Shown: in pieces, positions 58,265-64,000 of the stretch | How the letters are laid out: each line of letters starts with the position of its first letter | Numbering within the stretch: position 1 is the first letter of the stretch | From: Devosia aquimaris | GTDB taxonomy: Bacteria; Pseudomonadota; Alphaproteobacteria; Rhizobiales; Devosiaceae | Direction: 5' to 3' | Assembly (NCBI RefSeq): GCF_020169335.1 | Contig: NZ_JAIEZN010000001.1 | Coordinates: 1,195,426-1,259,425, forward strand | Length of the DNA: 64,000 nucleotides | Notes under the pieces: model-generated | Database searches by the model: none | What the model saw: only the letters and a program-made list of their open reading frames with translations | Told to the model about the DNA's origin: nothing | Position numbers and translations under genes: made by a program

Positions 58265-59266
58265 TTACCGGAACGCCGGGATGACGTGGCGGCCGTAGCC
58301 GGCGATGATTTCTTCTTCGTCGCCGCTGTCGAGATAGATGTTGAACTGGGTGACGCCCGCCGCCTTGAGGGCATGCATCTTGGCGATGTGCTCATCCGGC
58401 TCGCCCAGCACGCAGAAATTCTCCACCACATCTGGCGTGATGAAGTCGAGGAACGGGTTATCCGCCTGGCCGTGCTTGGAGTAATCGTAACCGCGGCGTT
58501 TCTCGATATAGCTGGTCAGGCTCGCCGGCACCTTGTCGCTGTCAGCGCCGTATTTCTCAACAATATCAGCCACATGATTGCCCACCATGGCGGGGAACCA
58601 CTTGGTCGCCTCGATGGCGCGGGCCTTGTCGCCGAAATAGGCGGGCGCGGCGGCCATGGATCGATAGTTGCTCATGTCGCGGCCAGCAGCCTTGCCGGCG
58701 TCAATGCACTGGTCGGTGAACCACTTGCACAGGCCCGGATCGGCCAGCTGCAGCACCACGCCGTCGGCATGTTCGCCAGCGGTCTTGAGCGCCAGCGGGC
58801 CATAGGCGGCGATCCAGCTGGGCATGTCATGGCCAACGGCCCAGGGGAACTTCACCGGCTCGTCGATCTCGCCATAGGTGACTTCCTCGCCGCGCACCAT
58901 GGCGCGGGTCTTGTGGATGAATTCGGCCACCCGGGCCAGGGTCGCCGGCTTCTTGCCCATCACCCGGCGCGAGCTGTCGCCACGGCCGACGGCAAGGTCA
59001 AAGCGGCCGCCACTCTGCTTGGCGAGCGAGCCGAACAGCGAGGCCGCCACCGACCAGTCACGCACGTCCGGATTGGTCACCAGCGGGCCAAAGCGCATGT
59101 CCTTGGTGTGCTCCATGCACATGGCAATGGCCGCGTAGCAGTCGCGCCACAGGATGTGGGAGTCATAGAACCAGCAATAGCTGAAGCCCGCATATTCCGC
59201 CGCGCGCACCAGATAGCGGGCGCGTTCCGCTTCGATAAAGCCCTTGAAGGTGATGCCGAATTCCAT
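58265..59266 (-). CDS. LLM-class flavin/F420-dependent oxidoreductase
   Basis: A 333-residue bacterial-luciferase-like barrel (MEFGITFKGFIEAERARYLVRAAEYAGFSYCWFYDSH, then RFDLAVGRGDSSRRVMG, PVYIAA-type PSWIAAYGPLALKTAGEHADGVVLQ). It resembles the putative F420-using CPS_4043-type group, but some members of that group occur in species without F420, so cofactor is not certain from sequence alone. The neighbouring cofE, fgd and F420-0 transporter make F420 likely. Start 59266 chosen for the typical MEFGITF N-terminus. A palindromic operator 29 bases upstream suggests its own promoter. Confidence 0.8.
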   Translation of the reverse strand: MEFGITFKGFIEAERARYLVRAAEYAGFSYCWFYDSHILWRDCYAAIAMCMEHTKDMRFGPLVTNPDVRDWSVAASLFGSLAKQSGGRFDLAVGRGDSSRRVMGKKPATLARVAEFIHKTRAMVRGEEVTYGEIDEPVKFPWAVGHDMPSWIAAYGPLALKTAGEHADGVVLQLADPGLCKWFTDQCIDAGKAAGRDMSNYRSMAAAPAYFGDKARAIEATKWFPAMVGNHVADIVEKYGADSDKVPASLTSYIEKRRGYDYSKHGQADNPFLDFITPDVVENFCVLGEPDEHIAKMHALKAAGVTQFNIYLDSGDEEEIIAGYGRHVIPAFR

Positions 59267-59294
59267 GATGCGTTCCGTCTCCCCGTGCCGCAGC

Positions 59295-59318
59295 AAATTT
59301 GACCAGTCGATCAAATTT
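59295..59318 (-). promoter_or_regulatory. Palindromic operator before the LLM gene
   Basis: Eight-base arms AAATTTGA and TCAAATTT separated by CCAGTCGA, in the 88-base gap between the ATPase gene and the LLM gene. The pattern TTTGA-CCAGTCGA-TCAAA is of the kind bound by TetR-type repressors. Suggests separate, inducer-controlled expression of the LLM oxidoreductase. Confidence 0.6.
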
Positions 59319-59354
59319 TTGGTCGTGCCCGGCGCCAATGTCAATCGCCTTTGC

Positions 59355-60155
59355 TCAACGCGCGTCGGCCAACACCGGGCCATCATAGGCAATGAGCGGT
59401 CGCCCGCTGGCCGGATGCGTCAGTACGCTGGCGCTGACGCCATAGACCGATCGCAACAGGGCAGGGGTCAGCACGGTTTCGGGCGTCCCCTGGGCCACCA
59501 TCCGACCACCGGCCAGCACGATCAACTCGTCACAAAAGCTGGCCGCCAGATTGAGATCATGGATGGCCAGCAGCACCGTGGCGCCGGCCCGGGCCCGCTG
59601 CCGCAGCAGTTCGAGAATGGCAAACTGGGCATGGATATCGAGGTGATTTGTGGGCTCGTCCAGCAGCAGGAGCTGCGGCTCTTGCGCCAGGGCACGCGCC
59701 ACATGCAGCCGCTGCTGCTCGCCACCGGAGAGGCTTTGATAGGCACGCGCCCCCAGAGGCGCCATGCCGACCGCTGCAAGAGCCGCGTCCACGGCGGCAT
59801 CATCCTCGGGGGAGGGGGCCGACTGCCAGACGGACTGGAAGGGTATGCGCCCCAGCTGCACCACCTCACGGGCGCTGAGATGCACCTCGGCCAGGCCGCT
59901 CTGCTCCACTAGCGCCGAAATCCGCGCCCGCGCCCGCCGCGGCATAGTCGGGAGGTCTACGCTTTTGAAGCGGATAGACCCATGGTCGAGCGGGACCAGC
60001 GCCAGGGCCGCCTTGAGGAGGCTCGACTTGCCGGCGCCATTGGGACCGATGAGCCCTGTCAGCCGCCCGGCTTCGGCGCCACAGTTGACGCCATCGAGCA
60101 GCACAGCCGAACCGGCGCGCACACAAACATCGGAGAAGACAAGGCCCGCGTTCAT
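59355..60155 (-). CDS. Putative F420-0 ABC transporter, ATP-binding protein
   Basis: A 266-residue FecE/BtuD-like ATPase: Walker A GPNGAGKS (37-44), Q-loop Gln85, signature LSGGEQ (142-147) and Walker B with Asp166-Glu167 (LLLLDEPTNHLDIH). By itself it would pass for an iron-siderophore or B12 ATPase. Its overlap (ATGA) with the permease and position after cofE identify the cassette with the actinobacterial set proposed to import F420-0. Specificity is therefore inferred from context. Confidence 0.72.
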   Translation of the reverse strand: MNAGLVFSDVCVRAGSAVLLDGVNCGAEAGRLTGLIGPNGAGKSSLLKAALALVPLDHGSIRFKSVDLPTMPRRARARISALVEQSGLAEVHLSAREVVQLGRIPFQSVWQSAPSPEDDAAVDAALAAVGMAPLGARAYQSLSGGEQQRLHVARALAQEPQLLLLDEPTNHLDIHAQFAILELLRQRARAGATVLLAIHDLNLAASFCDELIVLAGGRMVAQGTPETVLTPALLRSVYGVSASVLTHPASGRPLIAYDGPVLADAR

Positions 60156-61171
60156 GTGACCCGCCGATAGCGCAGGAGGACGAGCAGGAAGATCGGCGCG
60201 CCCAGCAGCGCCGTGATGATGCCGACGGGCAGTTCGCGCGGGGCGAAGAGGCTGCGCGCCGCCGTATCGGTCCACACCATAAAGCTTGCGCCCACCAGCA
60301 TGGCGACGGGCAGCATGACGCGGTGGCGCGAGCCAGTGGCCAGCCGCACCACATGCGGCACGATGAGCCCGACAAAGCCGATGGCCCCGCCGACGGCGAC
60401 CAGCGATCCCGTGAGCAGCGCCGTAGCGCCCAGCAGAAGCCAGCGCAGGCGCGCGACATCGACGCCCAGCGTCGCCGCCGCCGCATCGCCAAAGGCAAAG
60501 GCATCAAGCGCCCGGCCGGCAAAAAGCATGGGCACCCCGAGCACAAGGACAGCCGCCAGCACCACGCCGGCGTCGGCCCATCCGGAGCCGCTGAGCGAGC
60601 CCATCAGCCAGCTCAGGATCTCGCGGTAGGAATCCCCGGTTGCCGACCAGAAGATGAGAAAGGATGTGGCGGCCGACATCAGCGCCGAAATCGCAATGCC
60701 CGAGAGGATCGCCCGCGACGGCGTGGCGCCGCCGAGCAGTCTGGTGATCAGCAGCGTCAGCGCCATGGCCGCTCCGGCACCAGCAAAGGCGCCCAACGGC
60801 ATCAGCAGCGCCGCGCCGATCAGGAGGAAGACAACCGCGCCCAAAGCCGCGCCGGAGGAAAGGCCGAGGAGGTACGGATCAGCCAGCGGATTGCGCGTCA
60901 GCGCCTGCATGATTGCGCCGCAGAGTGCCAGCCCCGCACCAATGCCGGCCGCGACCAGCACGCGCGGCAGGCGCAGATCCCAGATGATGGCGTCGCGCAA
61001 CCGCGTCACCGGCACCTCGCCGGGCAGGCCCAGATGATGGGCAATGGTCTGCCACACCTCGGTGGCAGCGATGTCGGCGGGACCAAGGGTCACCGCCAAC
61101 ACCAGGCTCAGGGCCAGCAGCGCCCACAAGGCGCCATTCAGCGCACGTTGCGGACCCCGGTTCAGGCTCAC
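60152..61171 (-). CDS. Putative F420-0 ABC transporter, permease
   Basis: A 339-residue FecCD/BtuC-type permease with about ten membrane helices (LWALLALSLVLAVTLG first; QALTRNPLADPYLLGLSSGAALG is the family hallmark; FVGLIVPHVVRLATG; MPVGIITALLGAPIFL analogue near the end). GTG start overlaps the binding-protein stop by four bases. It forms a homodimer pore in the inner membrane. Substrate assignment to F420-0 rests on neighbours. Confidence 0.72.
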   Translation of the reverse strand: MSLNRGPQRALNGALWALLALSLVLAVTLGPADIAATEVWQTIAHHLGLPGEVPVTRLRDAIIWDLRLPRVLVAAGIGAGLALCGAIMQALTRNPLADPYLLGLSSGAALGAVVFLLIGAALLMPLGAFAGAGAAMALTLLITRLLGGATPSRAILSGIAISALMSAATSFLIFWSATGDSYREILSWLMGSLSGSGWADAGVVLAAVLVLGVPMLFAGRALDAFAFGDAAAATLGVDVARLRWLLLGATALLTGSLVAVGGAIGFVGLIVPHVVRLATGSRHRVMLPVAMLVGASFMVWTDTAARSLFAPRELPVGIITALLGAPIFLLVLLRYRRVT

Positions 61172-62115
61172 GGCGTAAAGGTCAGCGCGGCCAGCTGCGC
61201 CGCCATGTCGACGGTGGCGGGCACATTGCGCACACCGGCTTCCGAGGCCGGGAAGGGCACCACGAGGTAGCGCTGGTTGACCACGGCATCGAGCTTGCTG
61301 GTGACCGGGTTTTCCGCCAGCAGCTTCTTCTTCTGCGCGGCCGAGTTCCAGGCGGCATCGACCAGCACGATCACATCGGGATTGGCATCGACTATGGCTT
61401 CCCAGCTGCTGGCGAACCAGCCGTCATCGACATCGGCGAAGATATTGGTAAGGCCGAGCGCCTCCATGATCATGGCCGGGGCATTGCTGCCGGCGCCGAC
61501 ATAGGGCGCCTTGGTGCCCGAGGAATACCACACGGCGGTGAGCCCGCGCGTATCGGCGGTGACACCGCCCAGGGCCGTGCGTTGTTCTGCGATCAGGGTG
61601 TCGGCCGCAGCGCTGGCGTCAAAAATGGTGCCGATCTCGGCAATCTCGGCAAAGACGCCATCAAAGGTCAGCTTGGCCGGCTTGATCGAACGGCAAGCGG
61701 CAGGCGCGACATAGCTGGCAACGCCGAGATCCATCAGGCTCTGCCGTTCACCGGCGCCATCGGCGGCAAAATTGCTCTCCCAACCGCCATAGACCAGGTC
61801 GGGCTCGGCCTCGAGCACCACTTCCTGGGATGGCACCTTGTCGGCCAGCACGGGCAAGCCGGCAGCAGTAGCGGTCCAGGGCTCGGGCGCCGGATCGTCC
61901 TGGAAGCCGACGCCGACGATGCGGTCGGCCAGGCCCAGGGCCAGCAGCATTTCGGTGGTGGACGACTTTATCGTCACCACGCGCTTGGGCGCGGCGGCGA
62001 AACTGACCGACACGCCGCAATTGTCGACGGTCAGCGGATAGCTGGTCTCGGCTAATGCGGCTGTGCTCGTCAACGCGGCGAGAGCAAGGGCTAAAAGGGC
62101 ACGGGAGGCGCGCAT
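61168..62115 (-). CDS. Putative F420-0 ABC transporter, periplasmic binding protein
   Basis: A 315-residue class III (BtuF/FhuD-like) binding protein with signal peptide (MRASRALLALALAALTSTAALA). Core: PKRVVTIKSSTTEMLLALGLADRIVGVGF, then VPSQEVVLEAEPDLVYGGWESNF and WYSSGTKAPYVGAGSNAPAMIMEALGLTN. The start ATG lies four bases after the cofE stop, with AGGA inside the cofE end as ribosome site. This protein, permease and ATPase form the three-gene cassette that TIGRFAM describes as a proposed F420-0 transporter in actinobacteria; a B12 or siderophore function is the main alternative. Confidence 0.72.
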   Translation of the reverse strand: MRASRALLALALAALTSTAALAETSYPLTVDNCGVSVSFAAAPKRVVTIKSSTTEMLLALGLADRIVGVGFQDDPAPEPWTATAAGLPVLADKVPSQEVVLEAEPDLVYGGWESNFAADGAGERQSLMDLGVASYVAPAACRSIKPAKLTFDGVFAEIAEIGTIFDASAAADTLIAEQRTALGGVTADTRGLTAVWYSSGTKAPYVGAGSNAPAMIMEALGLTNIFADVDDGWFASSWEAIVDANPDVIVLVDAAWNSAAQKKKLLAENPVTSKLDAVVNQRYLVVPFPASEAGVRNVPATVDMAAQLAALTFTP

Positions 62116-62119
62116 GGAA

Positions 62120-62956
62120 TCAATCCTGATGCTGGGCTTGGGGTGGGGAAACGGCCGGCGCATCGTCGCGCCTCTCTGCCTGGGCGGCGGCATAGCCCAG
62201 GCGATAGGCCTCGGCGGAGCCAAAGCGGAACATGTCATCTTCCACCGAGCGCACCAGCGTGCGGGCGCCGGGCGCGTCGATATCGACCACCAGCCGGTCC
62301 AGCCCGCGCACAATGGCGACCGGAATGCCGCTGGCCTTGCCCTTGACCAGGTCTGCGGCGCCAGCCAGCTCATCGGCCAGCACGGTTATGGTCACCTGCA
62401 GCGGCCTGCCATTGGCATCGACGCCGCCGCGCATGTCGTCGGTGACGATGACACCGGCAGCGCCGATCGCCACATCGGTCTGCCCGACGCGCCAGGGGCG
62501 CCCGAAGGTGTCGGTGATGATGATGCCCAGTCGCAGGCCGAGCGCGTCCCGCAGGCCGGCGCAGAGCTGGCGCGCGGAGAGATCGGGATCCTCAGGCAGG
62601 CGCAGCGCCACGCCGTCGGGCACATTGGAGGTATCGATGCCGGCGGCAGCCATCACCAGGCCCTGGCGGGTCTCGACGATCTGCGTCACGCCACCCGGAT
62701 GCACGCGCTCGGCCACCACGCGCACGGTATCAAGCGCAATGGCCTTATCCCGATCGGCAACCGGCACCTGGCGTCCCTCGGCCTTGGAGACAATCTTGCT
62801 GGTGACCACCAGAATATCGCCGTCGCGCAAGGCGCTCTCGGCATCCTCAAGCGCCTGACGCGCCACAGCATCGGCAATCATCGAGACCAGATCATCGCCG
62901 GCCGCGATTTCGGGCAGTCCGGTCAGGCCCCAGACGGAAAAGCGTGGCAAACTCAT
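62120..62956 (-). CDS. cofE: Coenzyme F420-0:L-glutamate ligase
   Basis: A 278-residue stand-alone CofE, which adds gamma-linked glutamates to F420-0 in the cytoplasm with GTP. Family motifs: [12 protein letters not shown] (51-62), [21 protein letters not shown] (148-168) and [11 protein letters not shown]. Unlike the mycobacterial FbiB, there is no C-terminal nitroreductase domain. I chose the ATG at 62956 ([10 protein letters not shown]); a TTG six bases upstream is possible. Followed at four bases by the transporter binding protein and preceded at 53 bases by fgd. Confidence 0.93.
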
Positions 62957-63009
62957 TGGCAATCGTCCGTGCGTGGCTGGCAGATGGGGCAGGGGGCCTG
63001 TTCCCGGCG

Positions 63010-64000
63010 CTAGAGCGCCTTGAGGCGCGGCAGGATATCGCGCGCGTAAAGCTGGAGGAACCGGCTCTGGTCATCACCGGGCGCATGGAACACCAGGTGA
63101 TCAAAGCCATAATCGATATAGGTCTTGATCGCGGCGACATGCTCGTCCGGGTCGCTCGAGACAATCCAGCGCTTGGCAATGCGCTCGATGGGCAGCGCCG
63201 CAGCCAGCCGTTCCATTTCCTCGGGATCTTCCACCGAGTGCTTTTCCTCGGCCGACAGCGACAGCGCCGCCCAGCCGCGGGTGTTGTTCAGCGCCACTTC
63301 CGGATCAGGATCGTAGGAGACTTTCACTTCGATCATGCGCTCGAACGGCTTGTCCGCCAGCGGGGATTCCTGCCGGCCCAGCGCCACATTGGGCAGCAGC
63401 TGGTCGACATAGAGCTCGGCGCCCTTGCCGGACGTGCAGATGAAGCCGTCGCCGGCGCGACCGGCATATTTGGCATTGAGCGGCCCGCCGGCCGCCAGAT
63501 AGATCGGCACCATCTCGTCGGGCTTGTCATAGATGGTTGCGTTCTGCGTCTTGTAGAACTCGCCCTCGAAGCTGACGCGATCCTCGCTCCACAGCTGGCG
63601 GATCAGCGCCACGGCCTCGCGCAGCCGCGCCGACCGCTCCTTGAGTTCGGGCCAGACCATGCCTGTGGACGGCACTTCATTGAGTGATTCACCCGTACCG
63701 ACGCCCAGTATCACGCGATTGGGGAACATGGCGCCCAACGTGCCGAAGGCATGCGCAACAACCGATGGATGTAACCGAAAGGTCGGCGTCAGAACCGAGG
63801 TGCCCAGCACGACGCGCTCGGTGCGCGCCAGCACGGCAGCCATCCAGGACGGCGCAAATGGCGCATGGCCATCGGTGTGCTTCCAGGGCTGGAAATGGTC
63901 GCTGACGAAGACCGAGTCAAAGCCAGCTTGTTCAGCTTCGACGGCAAAATTGAGCAGTTTGGTGGGCGCGAACTGTTCCGCCGACGCCTTGTATCCGAAG
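63010..64000 (-). CDS. fgd: F420-dependent glucose-6-phosphate dehydrogenase, 5' end outside window
   Basis: The window holds about 330 residues of a protein of about 335; the frame is open at the right edge and the first visible residues [10 protein letters not shown] correspond to about residue 6 of M. tuberculosis Fgd1. All functional residues of that enzyme are kept: His40 and Trp44 ([10 protein letters not shown]), Glu109 (GTGESLNE), Thr195 and Lys198 ([10 protein letters not shown]), Lys259 (EEKHSVED) and Arg283 (AKRWIVSSD). It should oxidise glucose 6-phosphate to 6-phosphogluconolactone and reduce F420. It is the most upstream visible gene of the F420 run. Confidence 0.92.

Follow-up and report, generated by a model that had tools for sequence, protein, structure and literature searches.

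How could a bacterium that carries genes for finishing and using cofactor F420 obtain this cofactor when genes for making its core are not found in the genome? The question is raised by a six-gene unit of Devosia aquimaris (assembly GCF_020169335.1), located on the minus strand at positions 58265-64000 of the 64,000-nucleotide stretch analysed here (contig NZ_JAIEZN010000001.1, 1,195,426-1,259,425, forward strand; hereafter the window). In transcription order it comprises fgd, cofE, the genes of a periplasmic binding protein, a permease and an ATPase of the ATP-binding cassette (ABC) type, and the gene of an LLM-class oxidoreductase. We consider it probable that this unit serves the salvage and use of F420-0 in a bacterium without core deazaflavin synthesis. 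The evidence, taken from sequence throughout, lies in the gene unit, the families of its proteins, the absence of core genes, the joint presence or absence of the parts, and the relatedness of the binding protein and of CofE to their counterparts in actinobacterial cassettes.

Families and layout of the six genes

Family calls were made by comparing NCBIfam profile scores, in bits, with the curated cut-offs. Five of the six proteins were observed to exceed the cut-off of the expected family, the exception being the ATPase. Fgd scored 504 against a cut-off of 420 (TIGR03554) and its nearest solved structures are 3b4y and 5lxe. Residues Lys198, Lys259 and Arg283 of the Mycobacterium tuberculosis enzyme, which are involved in binding the phosphate of glucose-6-phosphate, align with identical residues in our protein. 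An excerpt of a published study names these three as phosphate-binding in Fgd and describes mutagenesis of the Rhodococcus enzyme that probed their role (PMC5352752).

CofE scored 227.7 against 180.65 (TIGR01916) and contains the F420_ligase domain (PF01996), while the FbiB C-terminal domain is missing from the protein in the window. Stand-alone CofE was also observed across Devosia (49 proteins of 266-303 amino acids) and at 29 actinobacterial loci (244-350 amino acids). The binding protein (TIGR03868, 428.4 against 392.4) and the permease (TIGR03869, 445.9 against 437.35, with a PF01032 match) both pass. The match to the F420-0 cassette models, proposed as a check in an initial sequence-only reading of this DNA, therefore holds for these two proteins and not for the ATPase, which stays under the TIGR03873 cut-off. 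The LLM protein scored 487.6 against 295.45 (TIGR03842); its nearest solved structures are those of F420-dependent Mer, for example 1z69 at 101.6 bits, and it is predicted to depend on F420 itself.

The same reading had described five genes in one direction, with gaps or overlaps of 4 bases in the part from cofE to the ATPase, followed by an LLM oxidoreductase gene, and the coordinates on the minus strand agree with it (Table 1). The gap between cofE and the binding-protein gene is 4 bases, the binding-protein and permease genes and the permease and ATPase genes overlap by 4 bases each, and the ATPase and LLM genes are 88 bases apart. A chance arrangement is excluded because the identical gene order recurs in 50 congeneric loci with cofE.

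Table 1. Genes of the F420 unit in the window
Gene or product	Position	Strand	Remarks
fgd	63010..64000	-	start codon about 5 bases past the end of the window, as read in the longer stretch L002
cofE, F420-0:L-glutamate ligase, stand-alone	62120..62956	-	278 amino acids; 280 if the start is TTG at 62962
periplasmic binding protein, F420-0 type	61168..62115	-	TIGR03868
FecCD-family permease	60152..61171	-	GTG start; TIGR03869, PF01032
ABC ATPase	59355..60155	-	best family TIGR03873
LLM-class oxidoreductase, predicted F420-dependent	58265..59266	-	TIGR03842

Core F420 synthesis genes

The core synthesis genes were searched for with profile models in the D. aquimaris assembly (3.81 Mb, 3 contigs, 92.7% complete), 60 congeners and 40 genomes from other families of the order. 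Neither CofH nor CofD was found over its cut-off in any of the 61 Devosia genomes, most of which are at least 98% complete, and CofC was not found over cut-off in any of 37 Devosia genomes (our own and 36 congeners), as import in place of synthesis would have it in the sequence-only reading. The single CofC match in our genome reached 21 bits and lies within a frame of 466 residues. CofH and CofD were each over cut-off in 4 of the 101 genomes; these were the same four, all among the 40 outside Devosia. CofC was over cut-off in 3 of 24 genomes of the order outside Devosia. We also noticed that one genome of the order (G064) has two F420 loci (L210 and L211), each with CofC and an Fgd.

Distribution of the unit in Devosia

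CofE was over cut-off in 50 of the 61 Devosia genomes and Fgd in the same 50, with none in the other 11. The F420-0-type binding protein was over cut-off in 47 of the 50 cofE-bearing genomes; the remaining three scored 390, 388 and 329 bits, the last being a frameshifted copy, and the best score for a protein of this type among the 11 genomes without cofE was 185 bits. In the 50 loci, the genes fgd, cofE, binding protein, permease and ATPase share a strand and a collinear order, with the exceptions that the contig of L078 ends before the ATPase and that 1.3 kb lies between the binding-protein and permease genes in L086. The last three genes are frameshifted in G060 (L051). The LLM gene was observed beside the unit in 47 of the 50 loci, following it immediately in 38 and preceding it immediately in 9, and in the other three (L058, L059 and L078) the contig is cut. 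In correction of the sequence-only reading, the unit is therefore not confined to one genome but genus-wide in these bacteria of soil and water.

A congener with a genome of 2.0 Mb (G053) carries a decayed scar of the unit (L052:8855-9341), where a piece of cofE, a short binding-protein-like piece and the C-terminal 30 residues of the LLM protein follow in order. The LLM remnant is 90% identical and the other genes of the unit are gone. The metallo-hydrolase, TatD-type and metG-type genes next to the unit in the window also adjoin the scar, as judged by eye.

Among the matches listed, all relatives of the binding protein with at least 70% identity and a genus or species name belong to Devosia, and one further relative is named only 'Alphaproteobacteria bacterium'. 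A second genus is represented by a Pelagibacterium sp. protein (P0161) that is 63% identical. When 385 Alphaproteobacteria genomes were drawn evenly, the binding protein (E 1e-65) was found only in our own and CofH (E 1e-60) in 59; because a single genome carries the binding protein, no cassette-by-CofH contingency was drawn for this class. No plasmid copy was found among 1327 matching plasmid records, which are all below 60% identity; the best 40 of them are 33-37% identical and none is linked to F420 by its label.

Two neighbouring features were noticed in these loci. A gene resembling a nucleoside hydrolase (by eye) occurs near the unit in 18 of the 50 loci, for example L069, L074 and L081, and in 13 of those 18 it diverges from the unit at a distance of no more than about 150 bases. 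Near fgd in L071 (G001) and L080 (G048) there is a frame of 764-767 residues with an Fgd-related LLM part and a C-terminal part that resembles FAD-linked oxidases (by eye), which is a candidate fused F420 enzyme.

Actinobacterial F420-0 cassettes

The F420-0 ABC cassette of actinobacteria (TIGR03868, TIGR03869 and TIGR03873) was reportedly proposed by Selengut and Haft in 2010, and such cassettes offer a second test. Among 84,980 species scanned, 385 relatives of the binding protein were found and the best 80 were kept; these all bear actinobacterial names and are 54-64% identical to the Devosia protein. The three cassette genes were observed in order in 75 of the 80 loci, the other five being cut at contig ends. 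The flank contains cofE in 30 of the 80, on the opposite strand in every one. A true Fgd (above 55% identity) is present in 9 loci, and most other matches labelled fgd are LLM paralogues of 26-39% identity.

CofH was over cut-off in two of the 49 cassette-bearing actinobacterial genomes searched, both of them Myceligenerans (G118, locus L129, and G133, locus L150), which suggests that salvage and synthesis can coexist. Among the other 47, Agromyces mediolanus has a CofH match of 233 bits, four have weak matches (E 3e-5 to 7e-4) and 42 have none. In the order that includes Actinotalea, the binding protein (E 1e-90) was found in 77 of 297 genomes, CofH over cut-off in 30 and both in one; at E 1e-40, CofH was found in 54 and together with the binding protein in two. 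The table of cassette against CofH over cut-off gives a Fisher p of 0.0016, with kinship ignored.

Mixed origin of the parts

In the CofE tree, which holds 18 of the 49 Devosia and all 29 actinobacterial proteins, Devosia groups with actinobacterial CofE against six CofEs from alphaproteobacterial full pathways (support 99), with Agromyces nearest (88); the alphaproteobacterial branches are long. Our CofE is 51-64% identical to actinobacterial and 37-44% identical to alphaproteobacterial proteins. The LLM protein is 70-72% identical to those of Leisingera, Paracoccus and a genome of the same order (G080), and 42-45% identical to LLM proteins near actinobacterial cassettes. Because these identities and the CofE tree point in opposite ways, the unit looks like a mosaic, with an actinobacterial importer and CofE and a proteobacterial LLM as consumer. 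Our Fgd shares 67-68% identity with both Fgds of G064 and 61-64% with actinobacterial ones, and in the Fgd tree (15 of the 49 Devosia Fgds) it joins neither.

In Leisingera, Paracoccus and G080 the LLM gene is the last of an operon with the order cofG-cofH-cofD-cofC-cofE-npdG-LLM, so that evidence tying this LLM to F420 comes from outside Devosia as well. Since this LLM was the query by which the loci of Leisingera and Paracoccus were located, it is a biased marker of synthesis operons. On a Paracoccus alcaliphilus plasmid (L104:7202-10453), the synthesis operon and LLM gene are followed by an ABC binding protein, an ATPase, a permease and an annotated adenosylcobinamide amidohydrolase.

Alternative explanations

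The fold of the binding protein is shared with other importers, and its permease and ATPase are broadly grouped with BtuCD, so a BtuFCD-type corrinoid importer that is only incidentally linked to cofE and fgd has to be weighed. A B12-type importer even adjoins the unit in this genome (L002:10189-13391, plus strand, past the window end), where a cobalamin riboswitch (RF00174, 131.8 bits) leads an ATPase, a binding protein and a permease. It is divergent from the F420 operon, adjoins it in this locus alone among the 50 compared, and its binding protein reaches 199 bits for TIGR03868. The proteins of our unit remain under the cut-off of each corrinoid model, with 26.4 of 234 for BtuF (against 428 for TIGR03868), 246.8 of 461 and 231.5 of 334 for BtuC, and 122.2 of 281 for BtuD. 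A riboswitch is not a strict requirement of BtuFCD; none was found ahead of the F420 operon, and L002 has a single RF00174 match, which precedes the divergent importer next door. Such riboswitches were observed at 9 of 14 paralogue loci scanned and lead none of 10 F420-type operons scanned. Phylogeny, by which the sequence-only reading proposed to judge the transporter, places the binding protein outside the B12-type and other paralogues tested: a branch separates the Devosia and actinobacterial F420-0-type proteins from 15 paralogues (18 of the 49 usable Devosia and 20 of the 80 actinobacterial proteins; quick, subsampled trees with SH-aLRT only, from which G060 with its three frameshifted genes was left out). 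Among solved structures, the nearest to the binding protein is 4mlz, a Jonesia denitrificans protein. Together with the fact that all 50 loci have the importer linked to cofE and fgd, these results make corrinoid import very unlikely, and a BtuFCD identity was rejected on model scores, tree and riboswitch absence. A siderophore or haem transporter is barely conceivable. Its binding proteins have the same fold and models such as EitA match weakly, but EitA gives 122.6 bits against a cut-off of 640 and there is no iron-uptake gene within the unit; the siderophore identity was rejected on model scores and tree.

The importer might instead take another deazaflavin, namely FO, dehydro-F420-0, 3PG-F420-0 or long-tailed F420, as the ligand of the putative binding protein is not fixed by sequence. 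Free FO does exist, its release into M. rhizoxinica culture supernatant being recorded in an excerpt of one study (PMC11104420). We regard such a substrate as unlikely. Import of FO is disfavoured because it would require CofC and CofD, neither of which was found, and import of dehydro-F420-0 because it would need an FbiB-type reductase domain and CofE stands alone (a separate reductase was not searched for). Long-tailed F420 is disfavoured because CofE would then be superfluous. Finally, the core could be made by enzymes invisible to the CofH, CofD and CofC models, with an importer that is unrelated or accessory, given that the absence was judged by profile models and that our assembly is 92.7% complete. 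This is highly improbable, as the same models detect the genes in four genomes of the order and both CofH and CofD are missing in all 61 largely complete Devosia genomes.

Proposed mechanism

Salvage and use of F420-0 thus remains our preferred explanation. The sequence-only reading had put forward the same course of import, tailing by CofE, reduction by Fgd and use by LLM enzymes, and it is supported by the absence of core genes, the scores of the binding protein and permease, and the tree. A type II ABC importer formed by the binding protein, the FecCD permease and the ATPase would bring in F420-0 or a close short-tailed form; ABC systems of this class that have a binding protein are importers and do not export. 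The substrate would be supplied by neighbours and would have to pass the outer membrane, and F420-0 at about 0.5 kDa is of porin size. The stand-alone CofE would attach the glutamate tail, by which the cofactor would be retained and fitted to enzymes. Fgd would then reduce F420 in the cells using glucose-6-phosphate, and LLM, probably with other enzymes, would consume F420H2.

Several observations weigh against this explanation. That the putative importer binds and transports F420-0 is something we infer. Its ATPase scored 331.6 bits for TIGR03873, below the cut-off of 372.4 even though this is the best-scoring family, and two further Devosia ATPases are also below it (334.2 and 333.0); of two actinobacterial cassette ATPases scored, one passes by 0.3 bits (372.7) and the other fails (350.1). 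The LLM gene is not beside cof genes in G064, G074 and G098, which leaves G080 as the only one with this arrangement among the order's four full-pathway genomes; a partial LLM copy in Caballeronia likewise has no cof genes beside it. The 11 absences in Devosia, judged without a species tree, may reflect few events. The cassette does not require the loss of synthesis because 3 of the 49 cassette-bearing actinobacterial genomes hold CofH or a weaker CofH-like match, and the CofH-less state is common anyway, being observed in 191 of 220 cassette-free genomes of the order of Actinotalea.

On balance we lean towards a wider view, in which microbes trade F420 as a vitamin and most members of one Gram-negative genus are F420 auxotrophs. 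The importer and CofE would have come from Micrococcales-type actinobacteria and been joined to a proteobacterial LLM and Fgd, and the six-gene unit would have been lost as a whole. If so, F420-0 is a public good between producers and consumers.

Significance

NCBI records label the Devosia binding proteins as 'putative F420-0 ABC transporter substrate-binding protein', and the statement of the sequence-only reading that the unit was not known from Devosia-like bacteria is corrected accordingly. Uptake of F420 is said to have been a database proposal since about 2010. In the open-licence literature, with subscription journals outside the scope, we recognised no treatment or test of F420 uptake by this cassette, nor of F420 in Devosia. 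Within that literature we have not seen it reported that core synthesis is lacking across the genus and the parts of the unit occur together, that one operon of a Gram-negative group spans salvage and use, that this operon is lost in its entirety, or that its origin is mixed.

What makes the proposal testable is that the genus includes named species, that no core synthesis was found in it, that one operon encodes the unit and that a relative of the binding protein, from Jonesia, has a solved structure (4mlz). Should the proposal be true, F420 would be, like B12, a cofactor traded and shared among microbes, and surveys of producers that count cofH would overlook F420 users. The importer could also aid in bringing F420 into production strains.

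Comparison with known systems

The Devosia unit shares its LLM (70-71% identical) with the F420 synthesis operon of Rhodobacterales (Leisingera and Paracoccus). It differs from that operon in lacking cofG, cofH, cofD and cofC, in having a CofE of actinobacterial type and Fgd instead of npdG, and in the added importer. From BtuFCD-type corrinoid importers it is set apart by the lack of a riboswitch, by its separate branch and by other conserved residues.

The same three transport proteins are found in the actinobacterial F420-0 cassette, which has cofE close by in 30 of 80 loci and whose hosts, among the 49 genomes searched, are mostly without CofH. In Devosia the three genes likewise lie side by side, with cofE present and no core synthesis genes over cut-off. 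Unlike the actinobacterial cassette, the Devosia unit has an ATPase under the TIGR03873 cut-off and belongs to a host with an outer membrane. Because the ATPase misses this cut-off and the architecture differs, we do not class the unit as a plain member of the F420-0 cassette: in Devosia, cofE is located upstream on the same strand and forms one tight unit with fgd and the LLM gene.

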